From a virus: a stretch of 39,989 nucleotides of DNA. Positions 1,555-39,989 of this stretch are shown in pieces. Location: the IMG/VR virus record IMGVR_UViG_3300038468_000033, positions 1 to 39,989 of that record; one strand, 5' to 3'. How positions within the stretch are numbered: position 1 is the first letter of the stretch; each line of letters starts with the position of its first letter. The notes under the pieces were generated by a model, which worked only from the letters and a program-made list of their open reading frames with translations, had not been told where the DNA came from and ran no database searches. Both the position numbers and the translations under genes were made by a program.

Positions 1555-2702
1555 CATGCGAGATCAATCCGGCCTTGGTCATCGAAGGAGGCCATGCCGG
1601 GGAGGGCGTATTCGATTTTCTTGCCTTTGCCGAACTGGACGATTTTCTGGGAGTCGATAAGTCCTTTTAGGACACCGCGTACCCAGCGATCGGAGACCTT
1701 GCAAGCGGACTGAGCGCGGGCCATTACCTCGTGGATCTTGTGGCGCTGCCCGTTTCCGAGGAGAAGGAGTATTTCCATCTCCACAGTCTCTCTTTCTTTA
1801 CCGGCTTTTTCGTCGTAGGTGATGATTGCGGAGTGATTTTCAGCATTCAAGATCAGTTTGTACCAGAATCCCGGCATATTGAATCCACCCTTGAACTTTG
1901 GTATATCGAATCTAGTTTTACGTTCTAGTACAGGTGGTGGATAAGCAGAGACTTCGGAGGCGATGGACCAGACGACTTTGGCATCGGCGACTTCTGCGGA
2001 GGAGCCGCGGATGCGGTGGATAGCGCCGCCCATTGCTTCTCGGGATGGTTTCCGGAGGTGGTGGGCGCACATGACGGCGGCTCCGGAGTGGGTAGAGATT
2101 TGTTGGAGGAGTGTATTTACGTAGGTCATAGCGGTAGCGTCGTTTTCTTCGAAGGTATGGATGAGGCGGTAGGTGTCGATGAAGACAGCGATAGGGCGTA
2201 TGGCGCGGAACTTTACCAGTAAATCTTCAAATTCTTTCGAGGCGACGTTGAATCCGCAGTTTGGGATGATATAGAAGTCGGGAATACCGGCGATCCCGAT
2301 ACCACATAGAAGTTGGGATAGTTTATCCCGGAGGTCTGAATCTTGGTCGTCCTGAGAAATGAAGACAACGGGTCCTCTTTTTGGTACAGAGAACTCACCC
2401 AAGAAGGGTTGGCCGAGGGCAAGACAGATGGCAGCGTGGAGGAGGAGCCAAGTTTTACCGGCTTGGGGCTCGGCAGCGAGAATACCGAATTGTCCGGCCC
2501 CCAGAAGGTCTCGAATGATGAAGTCCATGCTCGGGGTGTCGCTTGATAGGAACTCGCCAAGTTCTTGTACGGGATAACCTTCCCCGGGTTTTTGTTCATG
2601 AAGTCTTTCATTTTTCTCTCCGAGAGTTCCGGGATCTGGGAAAGATCCTGCTGTTGTGGATGGAAATAACGCATTGGCAACATCTTCCCGTTTACTTTCC
2701 AT
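1554..2702 (-). CDS. RepA-like AAA ATPase (AAA_25 / RecA-fold), putative replication protein
   Basis: The 382-residue protein has a P-loop AEPQAGKTW (residues 77-85) following a GILA strand, a VVFISQDD strand near 113-119, and a Walker B strand IAVFIDTY (171-178). This arrangement is typical of the AAA_25/RepA hexameric-helicase-like family, which loads or drives replication in plasmids and phages. The C-terminal 70 residues (HKIHEVMARA to KIEYALPG) look like a winged helix. The ATG at 2702 overlaps the end of the upstream gene by 11 nt and has only a weak ribosome site, so it is probably translationally coupled. The repeat-rich region 223-1553 lies directly downstream. Family confidence is high; the role in initiation is inferred. 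Confidence 0.85.
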   Translation of the reverse strand: MESKREDVANALFPSTTAGSFPDPGTLGEKNERLHEQKPGEGYPVQELGEFLSSDTPSMDFIIRDLLGAGQFGILAAEPQAGKTWLLLHAAICLALGQPFLGEFSVPKRGPVVFISQDDQDSDLRDKLSQLLCGIGIAGIPDFYIIPNCGFNVASKEFEDLLVKFRAIRPIAVFIDTYRLIHTFEENDATAMTYVNTLLQQISTHSGAAVMCAHHLRKPSREAMGGAIHRIRGSSAEVADAKVVWSIASEVSAYPPPVLERKTRFDIPKFKGGFNMPGFWYKLILNAENHSAIITYDEKAGKERETVEMEILLLLGNGQRHKIHEVMARAQSACKVSDRWVRGVLKGLIDSQKIVQFGKGKKIEYALPGMASFDDQGRIDLA

Positions 2703-2931
2703 GCGTGGGATTCATGGCCTCGCGGATGGCTTCGAGGCGCTGGAGGAACCACGTATCGGGGCGGTCTTCGAAGAGGAGGCGGAAGCGGACCCGAGCCTCC
2801 TCCTGTTTGAGTTCGGGGTGGGAGAATTTGAGAAGGTCGAGGTGGTCGTGGCGGTCGCGCTCCTCGGCGGAGATCAGGGGGTCCGGCTTCGGGTAGAAAA
2901 CGTCGAGGAGGATCTGGAGTTCTCGCGTCAT
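2692..2931 (-). CDS. Small hydrophilic protein of unknown function, coupled to the RepA-like gene
   Basis: A 79-residue frame starts at the ATG at 2931, preceded by GGAGGG about 5 nt away. A GTG at 2937 is possible but overlaps that site. The protein is charged and helical, with an LLDVFYPKPDPLISAEERDRH segment followed by RFRLLFEDRPDTWFLQRLEAIREAM. No family is recognised. It is the first gene of the leftward RepA-like transcript and overlaps the ATPase start by 11 nt, so a partner role in replication is plausible but not shown. Confidence 0.7.
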   Translation of the reverse strand: MTRELQILLDVFYPKPDPLISAEERDRHDHLDLLKFSHPELKQEEARVRFRLLFEDRPDTWFLQRLEAIREAMNPTHGK

Positions 2932-2943
2932 GGGCACCCTCCG

Positions 2944-3076
2944 AGGTGGGGAAAGCTCGCACGTTCTCTCCGCGGAAAATGGCCTGTCAAGGATTTTTCA
3001 TAACTGCAATATTTTCTTGACAGTCTATTTGGCGGGGCTCTAGCGTCCCGGGCAGGGAGGCACATAGGAGGAATCA
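2944..3076. promoter_or_regulatory. Divergent promoter/operator region between the RepA-like gene and the XRE regulator
   Basis: CTGTCAAG at 2984-2991 and CTTGACAG at 3016-3023 are an exact inverted repeat. Each contains a consensus TTGACA -35 box pointing outward: leftward at 2990-2985, rightward at 3017-3022. Matching -10 boxes are weak (rightward TAGCGT at 3041-3046 with 18-nt spacing). The 24-bp segment between the arms is AT-rich. The adjacent XRE gene makes autoregulation here likely. Confidence 0.55.
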
Positions 3077-3439
3077 ATGGCACGGAAGAAGAAGGAAGCG
3101 AATGGTCAGTTTTCGGAATTCGGGAAGCTGGTCATCTCGATCCGTGAGGGTGCGGAGCTAAAGCAGGGCGTGCTCGCGAAGGCGGCGAAGATTTCGCAGT
3201 CGTACCTCTCGGCGATCGAGGCGGGGCGGGTCGGCCCTCCCCAGAACGGAGTATTGGTTCTCTTGGCCAAGGCGTGCGACTACGATCCGGACGAAATGCT
3301 TCTCCTCGCGGGCCGGATTCCTCCGACTCTCCACAAGGTTATCCACAAGGAGCCCGAGAAGGTGGCGAACCTTCTCCGGAAGGCGGGATACTTGGGTGCG
3401 AAGCGAGGCGGAGGTGCGCGGAAAACTGCTGGTGTGTGA
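3077..3439 (+). CDS. XRE-family (Cro/C1-type) transcriptional regulator
   Basis: The 120-residue protein has a classical helix-turn-helix around residues 16-70: FGKLVISIREGAELKQGVLA, then KISQSYLSAIEAGRVGPP, then VLVLLAKACDYDPDEMLLLAGR. There is no LexA-type peptidase domain; the C-terminus is short and basic. AGGAGG lies 5-6 nt before the ATG. It is the first gene of the rightward block and faces the divergent control region, so it probably represses its own and/or the RepA-like promoter. This is compatible with a temperate or plasmid-like lifestyle but does not prove it. Confidence 0.88.
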   Translation: MARKKKEANGQFSEFGKLVISIREGAELKQGVLAKAAKISQSYLSAIEAGRVGPPQNGVLVLLAKACDYDPDEMLLLAGRIPPTLHKVIHKEPEKVANLLRKAGYLGAKRGGGARKTAGV

Positions 3440-3677
3440 GAAGTGCCACGTCAGTTACGAGGCAAGAGCCCAGCCAAACGGAAAGTGTCAGATTTGTGGC
3501 GACAGGCTGAGCGAATTCTCGCCAAGGAATTTGAAAAAGCGACCACTCGCAAAGAATCGGATCGCGAAGGACATCCCGAAAATCTATCAGATCGGGGACA
3601 CGGAGATCCCCGACAAGGTGGCGGTGAAAATCTTCATCATGATGTTGCGGGACATGGGGTGCAAAGTATGTCTGTGA
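3396..3677 (+). CDS. Small zinc-ribbon protein
   Basis: The 93-residue frame overlaps the 3' end of the XRE gene by 44 nt and is proposed to start at the GTG at 3396. Later GTGs at 3414 and 3432 are possible and no ribosome site is decisive. It contains CEKC...CQIC, a four-cysteine zinc ribbon, followed by a Lys/Arg-rich linker and an IPDKVAVKIFIMMLRDMGCKV helix. Its stop overlaps the next ATG. Function unknown; DNA, RNA or protein binding is possible. Confidence 0.6.
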   Translation: MRSEAEVRGKLLVCEKCHVSYEARAQPNGKCQICGDRLSEFSPRNLKKRPLAKNRIAKDIPKIYQIGDTEIPDKVAVKIFIMMLRDMGCKVCL

Positions 3678-3913
3678 ATTATTCACCCGGAACGACGGCA
3701 TCGAAGGCGATCAAGTATTACATTTCCCCCCACTATTACTACCCCAACTGGTATCTCCCGTATTGGTATCCGTGGCATCCGGGTCCGATGGTGGTGCCTC
3801 CTTGCGGCCATTGTCCGACCTGCGGACAGGTGGTCGCGACGTGCCCAACCTGCGGGAAGAAACTGGAGGAACAACATGAAGTGGTTCCTACTGAATCTGG
3901 TTCTGGCCTTTGA
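3668..3913 (+). CDS. Tyr/Trp/Pro-rich protein with zinc ribbon
   Basis: ATG at 3668 overlaps the previous stop. The 81-residue product has an unusual aromatic-proline stretch (residues about 16-40, with YYISPHYYYPNWYLPYWYPW) and then a CGHC-PTC-G...C-PTC-G knot with two CPTCG motifs. No family is recognised. Its last 38 nt are also read in another frame by the 20-residue microprotein gene that follows. Confidence 0.65.
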   Translation: MSVNYSPGTTASKAIKYYISPHYYYPNWYLPYWYPWHPGPMVVPPCGHCPTCGQVVATCPTCGKKLEEQHEVVPTESGSGL

Positions 3914-3938
3914 CTGGTGGTGGTGGTTGAGGCGGTAG
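3876..3938 (+). CDS. 20-residue microprotein ending LAFDWWWWLRR
   Basis: GGAGG at 3865-3869 sits 6 nt before an ATG that opens a 20-codon frame. It has a hydrophobic segment (MKWFLLNLVLAF) followed by DWWWWLRR and a TAG directly abutting the ATG of the next gene. A second 21-residue frame with the same last 11 residues lies on the other strand at 37158-37223, also with a strong ribosome site. The repetition in unrelated surroundings supports translation. A small membrane-interface peptide is likely; the target is unknown. Confidence 0.7.
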   Translation: MKWFLLNLVLAFDWWWWLRR

Positions 3939-4238
3939 ATGGATCGCCGCGATGTCCTGAAAAAGCTGGTTCTGGTCCCCTTGGGGCTGGTAGCCACGAA
4001 GGTCCCGACTCGAAGCCATCCGGAAACGGGTCCTGCGAAGTCGAATTCCGACCCAAATCTGCCATTTCATACCCAATGTGCGAGGTGTCTGTTCGTGCTC
4101 CCCACAGATGAATTGATTCTCGGGAAATGTTCCCGGTGCGGGCATACATGGACTCCGCGACCGTGGCCGGAGAATTCACAAGTTTGGGAAGTGCTGAAAA
4201 GTTACGGAAAGAATAAGCCGTGGCCCCGGAATTCGTAG
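3939..4238 (+). CDS. Zinc-ribbon protein with twin-arginine-like N-terminus
   Basis: The 99-residue protein begins MDRRDVLKKLVLVPLGLVAT, which resembles a short Tat-type signal (RR plus hydrophobic stretch). CARC and CSRCGHTW follow at about residues 46-70 as a four-cysteine zinc ribbon. The ATG abuts the stop of the microprotein gene and is preceded by GAGGCGG. Whether the N-terminus is a signal or only a hydrophobic helix cannot be decided here. Function unknown. Confidence 0.65.
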   Translation: MDRRDVLKKLVLVPLGLVATKVPTRSHPETGPAKSNSDPNLPFHTQCARCLFVLPTDELILGKCSRCGHTWTPRPWPENSQVWEVLKSYGKNKPWPRNS

Positions 4239-4480
4239 CGTTTTTTCTTGGCTTTCTGATCGGCGGCGCTCTCGTCGGGACGGGCGTGGGCGTCGTCGTG
4301 AAGTATATTTCGAAACAGGAAGTCAAGATTACCTACACGAATCAGCCGCGGGTGATCCGCCGGACGGAGGAGGAGGAGGCGGACTTGGAGGCGACGGGTG
4401 AATCCGGAGCCCCGGGTCGGGACTTCTCCGAAATGCGAATGCCACAATTCATGAAGGAAACGGGCGAAGACCCAGACTAA
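4220..4480 (+). CDS. Small membrane-anchored protein with acidic tail
   Basis: GTG at 4220 overlaps the preceding gene by 19 nt. The 86-residue product has one glycine-rich transmembrane helix (residues about 5-27, FVAFFLGFLIGGALVGTGVG) and then a charged cytoplasmic-type tail. It lies immediately before terL where a small terminase subunit would often be, but nothing in it resembles TerS. Function unknown. Confidence 0.6.
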   Translation: MAPEFVAFFLGFLIGGALVGTGVGVVVKYISKQEVKITYTNQPRVIRRTEEEEADLEATGESGAPGRDFSEMRMPQFMKETGEDPD

Positions 4481-4523
4481 CTAGACTCTCCCCAGCGCCA
4501 GATCCGCCGGGGGCATCTCTCCA

Positions 4524-6068
4524 ATGGAGGGACGGCGGATCAAAACACGCCCCAAAAGGCGCGTCCCAACCGCGCAGGAAAAGAAGTTTCTCGCGCAAGG
4601 TCGCGAGGAACTATACTTTTTCACAAAGTACGTTCTCGGCTACTCCCGCCTTGATCGAGCGGTACACGAACCGCTCTGCCTTCTCCTCCAAGACCTTGAA
4701 AAAAACCGCCGCCAGCTAGTTCTCATGCCCCGTGGACATTTCAAGTCCACGATTTCCTCGGTCGCCTACCCTCTTTGGCGACTCATTCGTGACCCGGGAC
4801 TCACGATCTATCTCGATTCCGGGAATCTCGCCCTCACGAAGAAATTCTTGCAGGAGATCCGCGCTCATATCGAGTCCGGAGCCCTCGATGCCTACTCCCC
4901 GACCGGGGAGCCCATGCACACATTCGCCAGCAAAGGCGGGAGGAAGTGGACACAAACCGAGCTTCACATTGATTGGAAACCGGCATCGGTGGCCGCACCC
5001 TCCATCATGGCGGGGTCCGTTGATGTGACGAAAACGGGGTTCCACTTCCTTCTTATTATCGAAGACGACCTTCACACCGAAATCAATACCCAGACTCGGG
5101 AGGGAATCGAGAAAGTCATCAACCACCACCGGGAGTTGAAGCCGATCGAGGACGTGGGGGCGGGCTGCGAGCGGCTTGTCGTGGGAACCCGGTGGGCGTT
5201 CGATGACCTGTACCAGCTTCTCGAAGAACAGGCGGGGTGGCCCACTTACCGGAAGTCGGTCTGGATCGACAAGGCCCGGGAGGTCCCCCTCTTCCCGACC
5301 GAATTCCCCGTCGAGAAGATCCGCCAGATCCAACTCGAACTCGGGCTGGATCGGTTCGCCTGCCAGTACGAAAACGAGCCGATTTCCTCGGAAAACGCCA
5401 TCTTCCGACCGGAGTGGATCAAGGTCTACGAGGGGAAAGCCCCCCCGGGGACCAGCTACATCCTCCTCGACCCGGCATGGACCGACAAACGGGACGGCGA
5501 CCGCTCCGCCTTCGTCCACGTCATCGTCACCAACAACAACCAAATCTATGTCACGGAAGCGATTGCGGGGAGATTCAACCCCGACAAGCGGCTGGACATT
5601 CTCTGGGAGATGGCCTGCCGCCACAACCCGGACGTGATCGGGATTGAGTCCACCTCCTTCCAGAAGAGCGTCAAGTGGGAGTGGGATAAGCGGATGCGGG
5701 CTTCTGGCCGGTGGTGGGTCGTGAAGCCATTGAATGCCGACAATGCCACGAAAAACTCGAAAGAGATTCGGATAAAAGGACTTGCGCCGATCTATGCGAA
5801 CGGGGACATCTTCCATGCCCCGGGCCTCGTGGAGTTGGAGGAGGAGCTTCTTCACTACCCGAAGACGAAGCACGAAGACTTGATCGACGCCCTCTCCTAT
5901 ATCCAGCAACTCGCCTTCCCCGGCGGAATGAACCGCTGCTTTGTCCCGAACGAGTTCCAAGTTCAAGTTCGCGGAGAGCAGAAAAATTCAGATATTGACA
6001 ATCCACGGGAGAGGCTTATCTTCGAGGAAGTATTCCGAGATACCGCAACTGATTGGTATGAGGGATGA
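4524..6068 (+). CDS. terL: Terminase large subunit
   Basis: The 514-residue DNA-packaging motor has an ATPase domain with Walker A MPRGHFKST (68-76) and Walker B LLIIEDD (176-182). The nuclease domain (from about 308) shows the acidic residues expected of the RNase H-like fold: LLDPAWTDKRDGD (D316), IGIES (E375) and HEDLIDALSY (D452/D455). It translocates DNA into the procapsid through the portal and cuts it. The ribosome site is weak, but the frame and length suit the family. No small terminase subunit is recognised nearby. Confidence 0.95.
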   Translation: MEGRRIKTRPKRRVPTAQEKKFLAQGREELYFFTKYVLGYSRLDRAVHEPLCLLLQDLEKNRRQLVLMPRGHFKSTISSVAYPLWRLIRDPGLTIYLDSGNLALTKKFLQEIRAHIESGALDAYSPTGEPMHTFASKGGRKWTQTELHIDWKPASVAAPSIMAGSVDVTKTGFHFLLIIEDDLHTEINTQTREGIEKVINHHRELKPIEDVGAGCERLVVGTRWAFDDLYQLLEEQAGWPTYRKSVWIDKAREVPLFPTEFPVEKIRQIQLELGLDRFACQYENEPISSENAIFRPEWIKVYEGKAPPGTSYILLDPAWTDKRDGDRSAFVHVIVTNNNQIYVTEAIAGRFNPDKRLDILWEMACRHNPDVIGIESTSFQKSVKWEWDKRMRASGRWWVVKPLNADNATKNSKEIRIKGLAPIYANGDIFHAPGLVELEEELLHYPKTKHEDLIDALSYIQQLAFPGGMNRCFVPNEFQVQVRGEQKNSDIDNPRERLIFEEVFRDTATDWYEG

Positions 6069-23291: not shown

Positions 23292-23503
23292 AGCAATTGG
23301 ACTGGATCGCCATTTTCCAGTTTGTAATAGCCGGGTCTATCTTGGCTGCCGTCATGGGGCTTTTTAGGATAGACAACATGCTGAAAATAATGAATGGCAG
23401 GATTGGAAGGCTTGAGACTTGGACCCATGAGCATGAAAAGCTGGATGACGCCAAACATGAAGACCAGCAACGCCAGATTGACGATCTAAAGGGGAAGCTA
23501 TGA
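23288..23503 (+). CDS. Small membrane protein with cytoplasmic coiled coil (lysis cassette)
   Basis: GAGGAATTCC precedes a GTG start overlapping the previous stop (GTGA). The 71-residue product has one transmembrane helix (residues 5-26, DWIAIFQFVIAGSILAAVMGLF) followed by a charged heptad region (HEHEKLDDAKHEDQQRQIDDLKGK). It is ATGA-coupled to the amidase. The layout resembles XhlA-type haemolysin/holin-accessory or i-spanin-like proteins; which one cannot be settled. Confidence 0.65.
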   Translation: MKQLDWIAIFQFVIAGSILAAVMGLFRIDNMLKIMNGRIGRLETWTHEHEKLDDAKHEDQQRQIDDLKGKL

Positions 23504-23922
23504 ATTGGCGCTTCATCATGATCCACCACTCGCTCACGAAGGACAGCCAGACCGTATCATGGCAGGCGATCCGGAAGTACCACGTCGAGACCAACGGGTG
23601 GCTCGACATCGGCTATCATTTCGGGATCGAGCTTATCAATGACCAGTATGAAGTTCTGGTCGGTCGCCCGCTCGATACGCCGGGTGCCCATTGCAAGGAG
23701 AACCAGATGAACAATCTTGCAATTGGGGTGTGTTGCGTCGGGAACTACGACTTGGAGGAGCCCCCGGCGGCCATGATTGCCGTTCTTTCGAAGCGCCTCC
23801 TCGTGCCGCTCATGCGGCAGTTCTCGATCGCGAAGGAGCAGATCGTGTTCCACCGCGATTTCGCAACCTACAAGTCCTGCCCCGGGAACCTGTTTCAAAA
23901 GAAACATATCGTCGGGGTCTAG
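23500..23922 (+). CDS. N-acetylmuramoyl-L-alanine amidase endolysin (Amidase_2)
   Basis: The 140-residue single-domain enzyme carries the zinc ligands of the amidase_2/PGRP fold: His in IMIHHS (9/10), H118 in VFHRDF and C127 in SCPGN. Y39 (GYHFGI) and K125 match the catalytic Tyr/Lys of T7 lysozyme-type enzymes. It cuts the MurNAc-L-Ala bond of peptidoglycan at lysis. No signal peptide is present, so it needs a holin, and holin-like genes flank it. Confidence 0.92.
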   Translation: MNWRFIMIHHSLTKDSQTVSWQAIRKYHVETNGWLDIGYHFGIELINDQYEVLVGRPLDTPGAHCKENQMNNLAIGVCCVGNYDLEEPPAAMIAVLSKRLLVPLMRQFSIAKEQIVFHRDFATYKSCPGNLFQKKHIVGV

Positions 23923-25477: not shown

Positions 25478-26166
25478 GCCCCCGGGCTCTCCTTTCCCGC
25501 GGATCGGGTGGCGGCACGGTGGTCGCCACGATCAATCCCGCCTTTGACCGGACGGCCTTCCGGGATTCGAACGACGATCTCGGCTCCGACGAATGGACCC
25601 TCGCCTCGGCTACCGCTACCACCCTCATCCTCGGCTATCTCGCCACCCTGATCGACCCGGCAATCCACGACTACTGGTACAGGGTTGGGATGGACTTCTC
25701 GTTCGGCTCGATCCCGACGAGCGCCACGATTACGCAGGTCCAGTTCCAGATCCGGGTCACGTTCCAAGATGGGACAGGTGGGGACTTCGCCATCGCGGAC
25801 AAGCTCGGGGGGGGGGCTTTCTCTGCGGAGGGCGATCCGCAGACCTTTTGGGACGAGTGTTCGGGTGGGACTTCCTACGGGACGCTCACTCCGAGCCTAT
25901 CCGCCCCGCGGACGTACACCGTGACGCTGAATGCGGCGGCGGTATCGGCCGTTCAAACGGTGGTTACTGCCGGGTCGGGGAGTGTCCAGATCGCCCTCGC
26001 GGAAACGGGAGCCTTAGACGTGAACGACGTGCGCCGGTTCCTTTCTTCCGTGGATGCCTCCTCGAACAAGCCCGCCCTGATCGTGACCTACACGACGGCG
26101 GGTGGCCCGGGAATGAGCGGCTTGGATGCCGAGGATCTCTTCACAAATATGGCCCAGCTTTCATAG
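25474..26166 (+). CDS. Fibre / receptor-binding-like beta-sandwich protein
   Basis: The 230-residue product has a lectin-like or DNRLRE-like beta-sandwich pattern: SATITQVQFQIRVTFQD, YTVTLNAAAVSAVQTVVTAG, VRRFLSSVDASSNKPALIVTYT. The last, ending in PALIVTY, is typical of such domains. It ends the rightward block and overlaps the convergent leftward gene by 6 nt. Receptor or glycan binding is inferred. A 20-bp segment at 25949-25968 is identical to 37724-37743. Confidence 0.6.
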   Translation: MSPRALLSRGSGGGTVVATINPAFDRTAFRDSNDDLGSDEWTLASATATTLILGYLATLIDPAIHDYWYRVGMDFSFGSIPTSATITQVQFQIRVTFQDGTGGDFAIADKLGGGAFSAEGDPQTFWDECSGGTSYGTLTPSLSAPRTYTVTLNAAAVSAVQTVVTAGSGSVQIALAETGALDVNDVRRFLSSVDASSNKPALIVTYTTAGGPGMSGLDAEDLFTNMAQLS

Positions 26167-27595: not shown

Positions 27596-27682
27596 TCAAA
27601 ATCTCAGAAACACCAACACAGACACTACCCACGCCATCACTACAATTATGAGTAGTGCCAGAATCATGATTATTATTTTCAT
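27596..27682 (-). CDS. 28-residue single-helix membrane microprotein
   Basis: GGAGG at 27691-27687 lies 4 nt before an ATG opening 28 codons, nearly all hydrophobic: MKIIIMILALLIIVVMAWVV, then SVLVFLRF. The whole peptide is one transmembrane helix with an FLRF end. It is one of several membrane microproteins in the leftward block. Confidence 0.5.
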   Translation of the reverse strand: MKIIIMILALLIIVVMAWVVSVLVFLRF

Positions 27683-27862: not shown

Positions 27863-27937
27863 TGGAGTTGATAATGGGATTCGAACCCACAACTTCGGCT
27901 CCGAAGTGCCGATGCTCTACCATTGAGCCATATCAAC
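27863..27937 (-). tRNA. tRNA with encoded CCA and 8-nt anticodon loop (isotype uncertain)
   Basis: Leftward strand folds as a cloverleaf: acceptor GTTGATA/TATCAAC (perfect), D arm GCTC-AATGGTA-GAGC, anticodon stem TCGGC/GCCGA, T arm GTGGG-TTCGAAT-CCCAT, then discriminator U and CCA. The anticodon loop reads ACTTCGGA, eight bases. If the last seven form a standard loop the anticodon is UCG (Arg). The U73 discriminator is more typical of Gly or Cys, so the isotype is unclear. A perfect 8-bp hairpin (ACATACTT/AAGTATGT) lies right at the 5' end and may assist processing. Confidence 0.85.
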
Positions 27938-29664: not shown

Positions 29665-29826
29665 CTACGGCAGCCAGAGATTGTGAATGAAGTCCCACCA
29701 CGCTTCGAAACTGATGAAGGACCGCCACCCGTCGCCGCCCTCGCCCCACGTATCCGCGAAGGCTGGATGGACGAGCCAGATGGAGAGAATCGCGAAAATC
29801 GAAACGCAGATCAAGAACTTTTTCAT
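29665..29826 (-). CDS. Small secreted Trp-rich peptide
   Basis: AGGTGTGCC before the ATG, which overlaps the upstream stop (ATGA). The 53-residue product has a clear Sec signal (MKKFLICVSIFAILSIWLV, cleavage probably after AFA) and a roughly 28-residue mature part rich in Trp, Phe and Gly (WGEGGDGW; SFEAWWDFIHNLWLP). It would act in the envelope or outside the cell; target unknown. Confidence 0.65.
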   Translation of the reverse strand: MKKFLICVSIFAILSIWLVHPAFADTWGEGGDGWRSFISFEAWWDFIHNLWLP

Positions 29827-35997: not shown

Positions 35998-36027
35998 TCA
36001 AGTTCACCTCCTTTCATTTCTGACATA

Positions 36028-36303
36028 TCACTTCTCGCCCGGCTTGGGAGGAGTCGGGAAGTGCTCGCGGATCTTGTCCGCAGCGGCCTTATTGTCGTAG
36101 TTAGTCCCGTGGGTGGACATGAGACGGAGTACCGCAGTCCTTCTCGGACTTCCCAGAAGGGCCGCGTTCAGGTACACGCACATTCGGTACGGGTTCGTCA
36201 TCTTGTCCCACGCCTCCTGCGCCATACCTCCATCCTGAATCCCGACTTGCTCCGCTCTCATGCAAGCCCCGGCTTTCCGGAGAGCTTCGTTGACTAGCCC
36301 CAA
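36028..36303 (-). CDS. Small early protein with Cys/Trp-type domain
   Basis: TTG 36303 with GGCGGATC upstream; the start is less certain than most. The 91-residue product contains GACMRAEQVGIQDGGMAQEAWDKMTNPYRMCVYLNAALL, which aligns by eye with the shared domain of its neighbours, then a basic loop and a C-terminal helix. A 6-bp hairpin (CCGCCA/TGGCGG, 36310-36326) precedes it. Confidence 0.6.
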   Translation of the reverse strand: MGLVNEALRKAGACMRAEQVGIQDGGMAQEAWDKMTNPYRMCVYLNAALLGSPRRTAVLRLMSTHGTNYDNKAAADKIREHFPTPPKPGEK

Positions 36304-36337
36304 GCTGATCCGCCAATCGGTGGCGGGGCTCAGGGCA

Positions 36338-36502
36338 TCAGCGAAAAAAGTTCTCCGCCTTCTTCTTGATCGCGTCCAAGTCCGCGAAGATTTCCGCCGC
36401 TGCGTCCGAACGAACCGGAGCCCGGAGCTTCGCGGTCCGCTTCGCCGGACGCTTCTTCTTCGGGGACGGCTTCCGCTTCGCCGTGGTCTTCTTTGTGGGC
36501 AC
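36338..36502 (-). CDS. Small histone-like basic protein
   Basis: GGGAGGTGACAAGG precedes GTG 36502. The 54-residue product has a Lys/Arg/Pro/Ala-rich tail at its N-terminus (MPTKKTTAKRKPSPKKKRPA) like histone H1 or phage DNA-condensing tails. A short helix DAAAEIFADLDAIKKKAENFF follows. That helix resembles the N-terminus of the gene at 36668 (TAAREIINDLDALKVKIANY). Nucleic-acid binding is likely. Confidence 0.65.
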   Translation of the reverse strand: MPTKKTTAKRKPSPKKKRPAKRTAKLRAPVRSDAAAEIFADLDAIKKKAENFFR

Positions 36503-36667
36503 CCTTGTCACCTCCCTTCTGGTAAGATTCCCGGTCGGGGCGGCAACCGGGACGGCCATCCCGCCCGCCCGCGGCGAATCCGGCGGGGAGTTCCCCCGAG
36601 GACAGACCTACGGCTCAGGCTGTCTATCGGGGAGCACCCTCCCTGCGGGGAATCGGAATGCCGCCGA
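36503..36667 (-). other. Structured intergenic spacer
   Basis: This gene-free stretch of about 165 nt contains CCCCGA...UCGGGG enclosing GACAGCCU/AGG(U)CUGUC (about 36593-36636), and UCCCGGU/ACCGGGA (7 bp, near 36527-36550). It also has CCCGCC/GGCGGG. It ends in the ribosome site of the histone-like gene. It could be a regulatory leader or RNA element. Confidence 0.4.
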
Positions 36668-37033
36668 CTAGTCCCTCGGCTTCGGCATGTTGGGCCAGCG
36701 AGCGAGGATCTCCCGGCTCGTCCCCGGGATGTTCTCCACGCCGCAGACGTTCTCCAGCCACCACTCCTGCTGATCGTGGGTGGCCTGCTGCCAGAGGGCC
36801 GTCACGTTCATGGTCTTGTTCTGACGGACCATCCGGATCACGTCCTCGTCGGCGTCGTACTCCTTGAGAAGCAGGAGAAGTTCCTCCCGATCCTCCACGG
36901 TCCAGAGCGCGGGGCCACCCGTCGGAGCCCCGATCGTTCCCGCGTTGATGCCAGCGTAGTTCGCGATCTTCACCTTGAGCGCATCGAGATCGTTGATGAT
37001 CTCGCGCGCCGCGGTCTGCACGTTCGCATCCAT
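36668..37033 (-). CDS. Early protein with Trp-type domain
   Basis: GGGGGTGATTTAGAA precedes ATG 37033. The 121-residue product has an N-terminal helix resembling the end of the histone-like protein, then LLLLLKEYDADEDVIRMVRQNKTMNVTALWQQATHDQQEWWLENVCGVE. The last part follows the spacing of the shared domain, with Asp in place of the first Cys, and the protein ends ARWPNMPKP. Function unknown. Confidence 0.65.
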   Translation of the reverse strand: MDANVQTAAREIINDLDALKVKIANYAGINAGTIGAPTGGPALWTVEDREELLLLLKEYDADEDVIRMVRQNKTMNVTALWQQATHDQQEWWLENVCGVENIPGTSREILARWPNMPKPRD

Positions 37034-37066
37034 TTCTAAATCACCCCCTTTCATTTGTGACGTATG

Positions 37067-37083
37067 CCCCGTTCAAACGGGGG
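37067..37083. repeat. CCCCGTTTGAACGGGG hairpin
   Basis: A perfect 7-bp-arm palindrome with a 2-nt centre lies directly after the stop of the 25-residue microprotein gene, before the ribosome site of the gene starting at 37033. Similar elements follow the stop at 37739 and precede the gene starting at 222. Probably a processing or attenuation element. Confidence 0.55.
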
Positions 37084-37161
37084 TTAGTTCCTTTTCCTCA
37101 TCCACCTGCCGAACAGGTATCCCAGAACCAGAAAGATGATGAGAGTCCACGCGGCGTTCAC
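37084..37161 (-). CDS. 25-residue single-helix membrane microprotein
   Basis: GTG 37161 overlaps the stop of the WWWW microprotein (GTGA). The 25 codons encode NAAWTLIIFLVLGYLFGRW followed by MRKRN: one hydrophobic helix with a positive C-terminal end. The tight coupling suggests it works with the WWWW microprotein. Confidence 0.6.
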   Translation of the reverse strand: MNAAWTLIIFLVLGYLFGRWMRKRN

Positions 37162-37223
37162 CGGCGTAGCCACCACCACCAGTCGAAGGCGAGGACGAAC
37201 AGCATCAGAATGGACACGGCCAT
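37158..37223 (-). CDS. 21-residue microprotein ending LAFDWWWWLRR
   Basis: AAGGAGGTGA directly precedes ATG 37223 (an in-frame GTG at 37217 has better spacing). The product is MAVSILMLFV plus LAFDWWWWLRR. The last 11 residues are identical to those of the microprotein at 3876-3938, while the nucleotide sequences differ at synonymous positions (for example TTGAGGCGG versus CTACGCCGG). That supports real coding. It has a hydrophobic segment plus tryptophan cluster; membrane-interface placement is likely. Confidence 0.72.
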   Translation of the reverse strand: MAVSILMLFVLAFDWWWWLRR

Positions 37224-37384
37224 TCACCTCCTTCCACATGGGAATTGATTTCTTCGATCTCCTCGGGCATGTTCAGGCAGAAGACTTCAAAGCACCCCTG
37301 CCCGCAGAAGTGCCAGACGTTGACGCCCTCCACCATGATGATCGGTCTGCCAGCGATCTCCATGCTGCAATGCGCGCAGTTCAT
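37205..37384 (-). CDS. TRASH/YHS-like zinc-binding protein
   Basis: ATG 37384 overlaps the upstream stop (ATGA). The 59-residue protein has MNCAHCSMEIAGRPIIM and VNVWHFCGQGCFEVFC, the C-x2-C ... FC-x3-CF arrangement of TRASH/YHS treble-clef metal-binding domains, and an acidic tail. Likely metal-dependent protein or nucleic-acid contact. Confidence 0.68.
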   Translation of the reverse strand: MNCAHCSMEIAGRPIIMVEGVNVWHFCGQGCFEVFCLNMPEEIEEINSHVEGGEWPCPF

Positions 37385-37698
37385 ACCTTCACTCCATCCG
37401 CGGCCAGCCGGGCACGGTCGGCTTCGATCTCCGCGACCGTGCAGGAATAGAGCCTTGGACCTTGGAGTGGAACCCCGCCCGTCTCGATCGCGCACAAGTC
37501 GTAGTGCAGGGTCGGCTCCGCGTCCTCGAAGGACAGATATTCCTCCACGCCAAGGTCCCAATCTGCTGCCCAGATCCGCACCCACCCCGCCCGCTGCGCC
37601 GGGGAGGCTTTCATCGCCATCGGCTTGATGAACTTCTCCCACTCCTCTCCGGCCAGCTTCACCTCTCGGACAGCCTTTTCGTGATTATCGAACACCAC
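37381..37698 (-). CDS. Small protein of unknown function
   Basis: GGGAGGTGAAAAAGA precedes GTG 37698. The 105-residue product is helical at the start (EKAVREVKLAGEEWEKFIKPMAM), with WVRIWAADWDLGVEEYLSFEDAEPTLHYDL in the middle. No family is recognised. Confidence 0.62.
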   Translation of the reverse strand: MVFDNHEKAVREVKLAGEEWEKFIKPMAMKASPAQRAGWVRIWAADWDLGVEEYLSFEDAEPTLHYDLCAIETGGVPLQGPRLYSCTVAEIEADRARLAADGVKV

Positions 37699-37719
37699 TC
37701 TTTTTCACCTCCCTTCCTA

Positions 37720-37743
37720 CCCCCCGTTCAAACGGTGGTTACT
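37720..37743. repeat. Hairpin after early gene stop, containing 20-bp exact repeat
   Basis: CCGTT-CA-AACGG forms the core of a hairpin that begins at the TAA of the gene ending at 37739. The 20-mer ccgttcaaacggtggttact (37724-37743) also occurs exactly at 25949-25968 inside the fibre-like gene. Confidence 0.55.
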
Positions 37744-38227
37744 CGCGGAACTTAGAGTCCGATCCCGGATAGTGGAACACCGGGTAGACGAAGCGAATCC
37801 AGTCCGGAGTGATCTTCGGGGCTGGCACTCCGGTTGCGCCGGGAAGCCAATAGTTGAACACCCGATAGATTCGGACTGGCGAGTAGTAGAGATGATTGTA
37901 AGTATTCATCCCACCATTTACGTGGTTGATCCACGCCTCCATCCACCCGTGATTTGTGCAGATGTCCCACAATTCCTGCGGGGTTTTCGAGGGATGGAGT
38001 TCAACCCATGCGACGGCGCTTCGCGCGTCGAAACAGCCTCCCATCTTTTTGATCTCCGCGATCAGATCGTCGCGCGTGAACTCGCGCGGCTTCGACTTCA
38101 AGCTCGCGAGTTCTTTCCGTGCGGCATCAAGCTCCGCCTTCCGGACATCCATTTCCCGAGAAAGAGCCCCGACGGCTTTCTCTAGGGAATTGAGTGCCAT
38201 CCGGAGTTCCCCTTCATCTCTCCCCAT
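37739..38227 (-). CDS. Early protein with coiled coil and Cys/Trp domain
   Basis: GGGGGTGATAGATAA precedes ATG 38227. The 162-residue protein has a coiled-coil (LEKAVGALSREMDVRKAELDAARKELASL), then EIKKMGGCFDARSAVAWVELHPSKTPQELWDICTNHGWMEAWINHVNGG, the clearest copy of the shared AC..A..W....T..ELW..C...WM.AW domain. A Tyr/Pro/Trp-rich C-terminus follows. Function unknown. Confidence 0.68.
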   Translation of the reverse strand: MGRDEGELRMALNSLEKAVGALSREMDVRKAELDAARKELASLKSKPREFTRDDLIAEIKKMGGCFDARSAVAWVELHPSKTPQELWDICTNHGWMEAWINHVNGGMNTYNHLYYSPVRIYRVFNYWLPGATGVPAPKITPDWIRFVYPVFHYPGSDSKFRE

Positions 38228-38263
38228 TTATCTATCACCCCCTTCCATCTCCGACATCGGCAG

Positions 38264-38500
38264 CTACTTCTTCTCCTTGCCGCCGCCCTTCTTCGGCTTC
38301 CCACCCTTCTTGAACTTCTTCTTCTTCACGTCCCCCGACTGGACGATCTGGACCGCCTCCCGCGAGGGACGCTCCGTGTCGCAAACCGTGCAGCGAACGA
38401 ACTCTTCCTTATCGGTCGGATTCATCACCCGCCGATGCTTCCCGTACCGAGAATCCTGATACGGGGAATCACAGAAACAACTCCGAACCGTGACCGGCAT
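38264..38500 (-). CDS. Small Cys-containing basic protein
   Basis: GGGAGGTGATGGA precedes ATG 38500. The 78-residue product has SCFCDSPYQDSRYGKHRRVMN and RCTVCDTERPSREA, a possible zinc ribbon (CFC ... CTVC), and a Lys/Gly-rich tail (KKKKFKKGGKPKKGGGKEKK), suggesting nucleic-acid binding. Confidence 0.65.
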   Translation of the reverse strand: MPVTVRSCFCDSPYQDSRYGKHRRVMNPTDKEEFVRCTVCDTERPSREAVQIVQSGDVKKKKFKKGGKPKKGGGKEKK

Positions 38501-38515
38501 TCCATCACCTCCCAA

Positions 38516-38779
38516 CTAGACCTTGAACAATTTCAGAACTCGATCAGGCACACGCCATGCGCGCCCCCGTACCCTTGAATGTAGGAATGGGCCATTGAAA
38601 GTAAGAATGAAGAAGTGCTCCCCGAGAACCGTGTGGCGATGCGCCGATACTCCAACCGAGATATAGAGTCGCAACGCCTTCATGTAAATTTGAAAATGCC
38701 GTGCCGAATAGATTGGCGATGGGGCTACACGCCAACAGAGAAGATTGCACTCGACCACCTTGCCAATCTTGAAACGCAT
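38516..38779 (-). CDS. Small beta-rich protein of unknown function
   Basis: ATG 38779 follows directly on the TAA of the upstream gene. The 87-residue product (FKIGKVVECNLLCWRVAPSP; ARHFQIYMKALRLYISVGVSA; EHFFILTFNGPFLHSRVRG) is beta-rich and basic. It is less certain than its neighbours because no ribosome site is visible and translation would rely on coupling. Confidence 0.55.
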   Translation of the reverse strand: MRFKIGKVVECNLLCWRVAPSPIYSARHFQIYMKALRLYISVGVSAHRHTVLGEHFFILTFNGPFLHSRVRGRAWRVPDRVLKLFKV

Positions 38780-39235
38780 TTAGAACGGCGTCCTTTCGTA
38801 CTCCGCGAGGAACTTCTTCTCCTCGACCTTGAACGTCTGCCCGAAGTCCGTGAAGTGGGCGTACCCGCCTTCGATCTTCACGGAAACAGTTGTCACGCGG
38901 CGGTAGGTGGAGCCTGCTGGAGAGGGTGAGCTTGCGGAGGCGACCGCATTGTTTGCGGTGGGAGTTTTACCCATTGGGATTGCCGATCCTCCGCAACCCC
39001 CATAGCAATAAGACCGCGATCCAATGCCGTCATACAATTCGGCAATGATGTATCTTCTACACCTAGAACACAGCCATGCCATGTCTGGGTCCACGAGTGG
39101 GTCTGAGTGGCCACGGGAACACACTTTTGGATAAGCCAATCCTGCGGGGTCTATCATTTGTCCGCAGAAGTCGTACCCGGTTGGGGGCTTGATTCCCGCG
39201 TTCCAGTTGTGCGGGCACATTTTGTATTGTGCCAC
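38780..39235 (-). CDS. Multi-cysteine zinc-binding protein
   Basis: GGAGGTGAAGCGAGA precedes GTG 39235. The 151-residue product has many Cys/His: MCPHNW, GYDFCG, KVCSRGHSD, WLCSRCRRY and YCYGGCGG, enough for two zinc sites. A Ser/Ala/Pro linker and a beta-rich C-terminal domain (RRVTTVSVKIEGGYAHFTDFGQTFKVEEKKFL) follow. Function unknown. Confidence 0.68.
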   Translation of the reverse strand: MAQYKMCPHNWNAGIKPPTGYDFCGQMIDPAGLAYPKVCSRGHSDPLVDPDMAWLCSRCRRYIIAELYDGIGSRSYCYGGCGGSAIPMGKTPTANNAVASASSPSPAGSTYRRVTTVSVKIEGGYAHFTDFGQTFKVEEKKFLAEYERTPF

Positions 39236-39272
39236 TCTCGCTTCACCTCCTTTCATTTTTGGAATCGGTCAC

Positions 39273-39497
39273 TTACCCTGCCTTCTTCATCTGCTTCGCC
39301 AACTGGTCCACGATCCCGGCCAGATCGGGAATCTCGCGGAGCGATTCCGGCTCGGCAATCGCGCCCACGACTTCTGATCCGAGAGTGAAAATCGGAATCG
39401 GCCCGACATCCGGCACGGCCTGAACCTTCACGGCGAGGTTGCCGATCCCGGTTTTCAGGATGTACCAGTTCCCGGCGCGTATGTCCTTACGCTCCAT
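39273..39497 (-). CDS. Small protein of unknown function
   Basis: AAGGAGGTGAAAGTCG precedes ATG 39497 and lies inside the end of the upstream gene. The 74-residue product has a beta-rich start (IRAGNWYILKTGIGNLAVKVQAV) and a C-terminal helix (IPDLAGIVDQLAKQMKK). No family is recognised. Confidence 0.65.
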   Translation of the reverse strand: MERKDIRAGNWYILKTGIGNLAVKVQAVPDVGPIPIFTLGSEVVGAIAEPESLREIPDLAGIVDQLAKQMKKAG

Positions 39498-39675
39498 CGA
39501 CTTTCACCTCCTTCTCCTTCTTCGCGACGGCCTGAATCTCGTCGCAGGCTGCGAGCGTCTTGTCCACGGCCTGTCCCAACTCTCGGGACATTTTCCGCGT
39601 CTTCAAGACCACGAGATGGTCCGACGCCGCTTTGGCCCGCGTAATTGCGTCGTCGCGCGTGTCTGGAAGCGCCAT
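39487..39675 (-). CDS. Small helical protein of unknown function
   Basis: AAGGAGGTGAAAAC precedes ATG 39675. The 62-residue product is a charged helix pair (DDAITRAKAASDHLVVLKTRKMSRELGQAVDKTLAACDEIQAVAKKEKE). It overlaps the next gene by 11 nt. Confidence 0.62.
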   Translation of the reverse strand: MALPDTRDDAITRAKAASDHLVVLKTRKMSRELGQAVDKTLAACDEIQAVAKKEKEVKVDGA

Positions 39676-39690
39676 GTTTTCACCTCCTTT

Positions 39691-39909
39691 CTAACCCGAC
39701 CGCGACCCCGACCCCGACCGCGACCGCGACCCCGACCACGACCGCGACCGCGACCACGACCGCGACCACGACCGCGACCACGACCCCGACCGCGACCACG
39801 ACCACGACCACGACCCCGACCACGACCGCGACCGCGACCGCGACCACGACTGCGACCGCGACCCCGACCGCGACCGCGGAATTGCTTGTGATCTCATTGC
39901 AAGATTCAT
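39691..39909 (-). CDS. Possible Ser-(Arg/Gly/Trp) repeat protein
   Basis: TAGGAG lies about 9 nt before ATG 39909. The 72-codon frame reads MNLAMRSQAIPRSRSGSRSQ and then alternating Ser with Arg, Trp or Gly, stopping just before the ribosome site of the next gene. An upstream frame of the same type ends in TGA overlapping this ATG. The placement in the operon favours coding, but the repeat could be a microsatellite that happens to be open. Confidence 0.35.
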   Translation of the reverse strand: MNLAMRSQAIPRSRSGSRSQSWSRSRSRSWSGSWSWSWSRSGSWSRSWSRSWSRSRSWSGSRSRSGSGSRSG

Positions 39910-39989
39910 GGGCTGGTACTCCTAGACCCCGACCCCGACCACGACCCCGACCGCGACCCCGACCGCGACCGCAACCCCGACCACGACCC
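39697..39989. repeat. Degenerate 6-bp tandem repeat CGACC(C/G/A)
   Basis: About 30 copies of CGACC followed by C, G or A (one CGACTG exception) run from 39697 to 39878. A 46-bp unique interruption follows, and the array resumes at about 39925 and continues through the window end. Only the sixth base varies and it is never T. It may mark an unstable or recombinogenic site. Confidence 0.85.

Follow-up and report, generated by a model that had tools for sequence, protein, structure and literature searches.

Gene callers usually skip open reading frames (ORFs) of about 20 codons, and a lone sequence rarely provides evidence that such a frame is translated. The window analyzed here, which is an entire virus record of 39,989 bases, contains two ORFs of this size that end in the same amino acids. 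This arrangement raises the questions of whether the two microORFs are translated and, if so, what their products could do.

Two microORFs and their surroundings

The first-pass annotation had described a 20-codon and a 21-codon frame on opposite strands that share an 11-residue ending. The frames, their positions, their lengths and their strands were as described (Table 1), and the common ending proved to be one residue longer, with 12 residues (VLAFDWWWWLRR) followed by the stop codon in both copies. When the six frames of the whole 39,989-base record were inspected, runs of four Trp residues, as well as FDW and DWWW, were found only at the two microORFs. The residues outside the shared ending are variable and hydrophobic in both peptides, and each peptide has about 18 membrane-compatible residues and then RR. 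The good ribosome site previously noted for copy 1 is the sequence GGAGG (3865..3869, + strand), located 6 nt before the ATG, and in copy 2 the sequence AAGGAGG is found 3 nt before the ATG (ribosome site AAGGAGGT, 37226..37233, - strand).

Table 1. Location of the microORFs and of neighboring features in the window
Feature	Position	Strand	Description
HTH-like regulator	3077-3439	+	PHROGs regulator matches
Upstream ORF of copy 1	3668..3913	+	81 aa from ATG 3668; Y/W/P-rich, CxxC pairs; last 38 nt lie within copy 1
microORF copy 1	3876..3938	+	MKWFLLNLVLAFDWWWWLRR, 20 aa
Next ORF after copy 1	3939..4238	+	99 aa, MDRRDVLKKLVLVPLGLVA..., hydrophobic start, then CxxC pairs
Next ORF after copy 2	37084..37161	-	25 aa, VNAAWTLIIFLVLGYLFGRWMRKRN; GTG start overlaps copy 2 stop codon
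microORF copy 2	37158..37223	-	MAVSILMLFVLAFDWWWWLRR, 21 aa
Upstream ORF of copy 2	37205..37384	-	59 aa, MNCAHCSMEIAGR..., Cys-rich; last 19 nt lie within copy 2

Both microORFs are located in operons whose further ORFs likewise overlap their neighbors. The ATG of the ORF after copy 1 is immediately 3' of the copy 1 stop codon (0-nt gap). In both operons the next ORF has a hydrophobic segment at its start, and the 25-aa ORF after copy 2 is a putative second one-span microprotein. Three neighbors had database matches below threshold: weak zinc-ribbon-like Pfam matches for the ORF upstream of copy 1, a zinc-ribbon match for the ORF that follows it, and a TRASH-like match for the ORF upstream of copy 2. 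The order on the + strand is HTH-like regulator, Cys-rich ORF, upstream ORF, copy 1 and next ORF. An ORF of 86 aa that is hydrophobic at its start comes after these and precedes TerL, portal, scaffold and MCP. Farther along the - strand run that includes copy 2, PHROGs identified a RusA-like resolvase and an exonuclease. The assignment of one copy to a late block and the other to an early block agrees with the PHROGs matches to TerL, portal and MCP on the + strand and to exonuclease and RusA-like resolvase on the - strand. A repeat search limited the similarity of the two sites to a 37-nt repeat (I2); therefore, the neighbors were not duplicated together with the microORF or have diverged since. 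Duplication of a block that included the neighbors was rejected because the search found these 37 nt only.

The window also contains other repeated elements. A dispersed 30-nt repeat with a near-palindromic core (CCGTTCAAACGG) is found at 249-278, 586-615, 25942-25971, 37062-37091 and 37717-37746, and the core occurs five times with at most one mismatch, versus 0.66 times expected. Two copies directly precede - strand ORFs, and the repeat could be an operator- or promoter-like element. An array of GACCNC hexamers occupies positions 39691-39987 at the contig end, and its - strand reading consists of Ser-Arg/Ser-Trp repeats.

Evidence for selection on a translated product

The amino acid sequences of the two endings are identical, and the nucleotide sequences differ at 7 of the 36 coding nucleotides. 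None of these changes alters a residue, in agreement with the synonymous codon differences reported at first. Three codon pairs differ by a single nucleotide (GTT/GTC, CTG/CTC and TTT/TTC) and two differ by two nucleotides (TTG/CTA and AGG/CGC), while the stop codons are TAG and TGA. When 7 random substitutions were introduced in either copy, the peptide remained intact in 0 to 4 of 700,000 trials, a spread that depends on the transition bias; in an 11-codon version with 6 changes, the peptide was retained at a frequency of about 1e-5. Trp codons have no synonyms. Hence, they add nothing to the argument for selection, which is carried by the V, L, A, F, D, L, R and R codons. The number of identical codons in the pair was seven over 11, compared with 6.5 expected from independent choice under the codon usage of the phage, so the synonymous sites look saturated. 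Conservation was confined to one frame, as the other five kept just 6-8 of 11-12 positions. This confinement, together with a number of identical codons that matches independent choice, indicates that the peptide was kept and not the DNA. Taken with the 12 of 12 identical residues and the seven synonymous changes, these results bear out the earlier claim of selection on a translated product. The best reading, for which the sequence comparison provides strong evidence that rests on one paralogue pair, is that both microORFs are under selection as a translated peptide. The claim that the ending was independently retained is compatible with either an ancient duplication or a transfer, and the present data do not distinguish the two.

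Instead of a peptide, the two sites could share an element of the DNA or RNA; GGTGGTGGTGG, for instance, might serve the next ORF as a ribosome-binding stretch, and at both copies a G-rich run is indeed present about 10 nt upstream of the following start. Such an element would leave unexplained that the VLAFD and LRR flanks are conserved as amino acids, that the seven synonymous changes fall outside the Trp codons, and that the five other frames diverge; we consider it highly improbable. That the ending arose by chance or as a GGT-repeat artefact is scarcely credible: a (TGG)n repeat can give rise to Trp codons, but VLAFD and LRR are not derived from it. Across 30 windows resampled with a Markov-2 model, the longest peptide common to two ORF ends was 4-6 residues versus the 12 seen. 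Resampling with a Markov-1 model gave a mean of 0.0 TGGx4 runs, versus two in the window.

Relatives of the peptide were sought in several collections. The FDWWWW pattern identified no other short hydrophobic ORF of this type among the IMG/VR viral contigs and the GTDB species genome contigs, and the WWWWLRR-stop and DWWWLRR-stop patterns found no further copy in the IMG/VR viral contigs. Comparison of both peptides with phages and plasmids by tblastn returned a single 7-residue chance match, no Pfam family matched the microproteins, and a literature search for the motif retrieved nothing relevant. Searches with TerL, portal, MCP and neighbor genes did not find close phage relatives, in searches from which very near records may be omitted. 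The TerL protein shares less than 30% identity with the named phages among those listed, and the MCP shares 23-31% identity with Mx8/Mx9-like and related MCPs. A scan of ten phage records and one viral contig detected no peptide of this kind. Since no homologue was found elsewhere, selection is deduced from a single paralogue pair. An in-genome duplicate with purely synonymous differences is nonetheless evidence that a tiny ORF is translated, and the same test can be applied to paralogous tiny ORFs with synonymous divergence across phage genomes.

Possible activities of the peptide

On the Wimley-White octanol scale, the best 17-19 residue stretches of the two peptides sum to -13.8 and -15.1, and their composition suggests that the peptide is probably located in a membrane. 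A plain transmembrane helix is less certain because there is an Asp within the hydrophobic stretch. Our proposal, to which we give an even chance, is that the phage has two paralogous, translated genes encoding a membrane peptide of 20-21 residues that acts through a specific partner. The peptide would insert as a short helix, in a single-span or interfacial manner; its Trp cluster would lie at the inner (cytoplasmic) membrane interface and its RR tail, following the positive-inside rule, in the cytoplasm. Expression would take place in two phases, from the DNA-metabolism block and from the structural block, and a peptide made from both could target the host envelope during much of the infection. 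A specific partner is favored over a generic pore because the C-terminal 12 residues are exact and the rest is merely hydrophobic. The most likely mode of action would be the binding of the exact FDWWWWLRR end to a membrane protein, with roles such as excluding a superinfecting phage or retuning a host membrane complex. If this is correct, the invariant four-Trp tail is an unusual recognition element. The holin or main lysis peptide of a phage would be expected in a lysis cassette beside the endolysin, and the amidase found in the window (23500-23922) is far from both copies.

The main rival to the membrane peptide is a regulatory leader or arrest peptide, in which the ribosome stalls at the four Trp codons or at LRR-stop and thereby sets the translation of the next ORF, an action in cis and inside the ribosome. 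The microORFs do contain consecutive Trp codons in a very short frame, and known Trp-operon leader peptides have consecutive Trp residues near a short C-terminus, e.g., MNIVSKNIANWWWSSFLRP (PMC7298713). An arrest peptide would also suit an exact C-terminus with a loose N-terminus, and in both copies the stop codon adjoins or overlaps the next start; yet overlaps with neighbors are also seen for other ORFs of these operons. Both microORFs are internal to their operons and overlap the upstream ORF, leaving no space in which an attenuator could precede the next start codon. No terminator-like site was found on the coding strand near either copy, Rfam had no match at the microORF sites even at E<=1, and RNA folding was no better than that of shuffled sequences for copy 1 (z 0.04) and only weakly better for copy 2 (z -1.57). 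The microORFs therefore fail the definition of an attenuator by position and by structure, with a 0-nt gap or overlapping start codon where the terminator and antiterminator would be, and classical transcription attenuation is disfavored, whereas none of these results speaks against arrest at the level of translation. The identity of VLAFD and LRR and the hydrophobic N-terminus are also left unexplained by Trp sensing alone. Overall, we find a leader or arrest peptide unlikely.

We also rejected a connection with a phage tRNA-Trp, as the two tRNAs of the window are a tRNA-Glu (TTC) and a tRNA whose anticodon loop is odd. The latter (27863-27937, - strand) passes the Rfam threshold at 63.9 bits, folds into a clean cloverleaf with an 8-nt anticodon loop (ACUUCGGA), cannot be named by ARAGORN, and is similar to +1-frameshift-type tRNAs.

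Another possibility is that the peptide depolarizes the membrane, by oligomerizing or by thinning it, like the membrane type I toxins or the Trp/Arg-rich antimicrobial peptides. Both peptides have fewer than 60 residues, are hydrophobic, include a putative membrane helix and have a cationic C-terminus provided by RR, all listed features of membrane type I toxins (PMC8309996). They also combine a Trp cluster with cationic residues, as Trp/Arg-rich antimicrobial peptides do, and tritrpticin (VRRFPWWWPFLRR) resembles FDWWWWLRR, in a comparison made by eye only (PMC6017362). Against this activity, both copies are embedded in operons, and no antitoxin RNA is known for them. When the surroundings were scanned for promoters by a simple method, 2700-4700 had no site and 36000-39989 had a single distant one. 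IbsC is toxic even when frameshifted (PMC7192591), so toxins of this type can withstand extensive changes in sequence, in contrast to the exact identity over 12 residues seen here, and a generic pore would need no such exactness. We regard depolarization as doubtful.

Combining the membrane peptide with its main rival, we put forward tentatively, and with more doubt than confidence, that the microORFs represent a two-copy new peptide family with one member for each phase of expression. Its invariant tail, FDWWWWLRR, carried by a hydrophobic anchor, would be either the ligand of a specific membrane protein of the host or the phage, or a nascent-chain arrest code for translation of the overlapping gene.

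Two other small ORFs were found on the - strand, each with a ribosome site and no Pfam match. One (29665-29826, 53 aa, MKKFLICVSIFAILSIWLVHPAFADTWGEGGDGWRSFISFEAWWDFIHNLWLP) has a signal-peptide-like start and a Trp-rich remainder, and the other (27596-27682, 28 aa, MKIIIMILALLIIVVMAWVVSVLVFLRF) is very hydrophobic.

Comparison with known systems

The microORFs are like the type I toxins and the Trp/Arg-rich peptides in composition and like TrpL in their Trp run, and they are not established as members of any of these groups. TrpL and peTrpL are ORFs of 14-19 residues that have several Trp codons in a row close to the C-terminus (PMC7298713), whereas the microORFs are not the first in their transcripts, have no attenuator, encode a hydrophobic N-terminus, and extend their identity to VLAFD and LRR. 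TisB, IbsC, AapA1 and Fst have fewer than 60 aa, one hydrophobic helix and a cationic C-terminus that is mostly predicted to be cytosolic (PMC8309996). The microORFs differ from them in being an operon-embedded pair with exact C-terminal identity and four consecutive Trp residues, and in that no antisense antitoxin is known. Tritrpticin and indolicidin have a Trp cluster beside Arg that is suited to membrane interfaces (PMC6017362), but they are animal host-defence peptides cut from precursors, while the microORFs are free phage ORFs whose products start with hydrophobic residues and carry little net charge (only +1 to +2). The single-span microproteins of phages and bacteria share with them the tiny ORF, the ribosome site, the hydrophobic span and the operon setting, and the microORFs stand apart in the W4 motif, the within-genome duplicate and the lack of a Pfam family. 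Their predicted product may be best described as a one-span microprotein of a phage, whose invariant tail is unusual.
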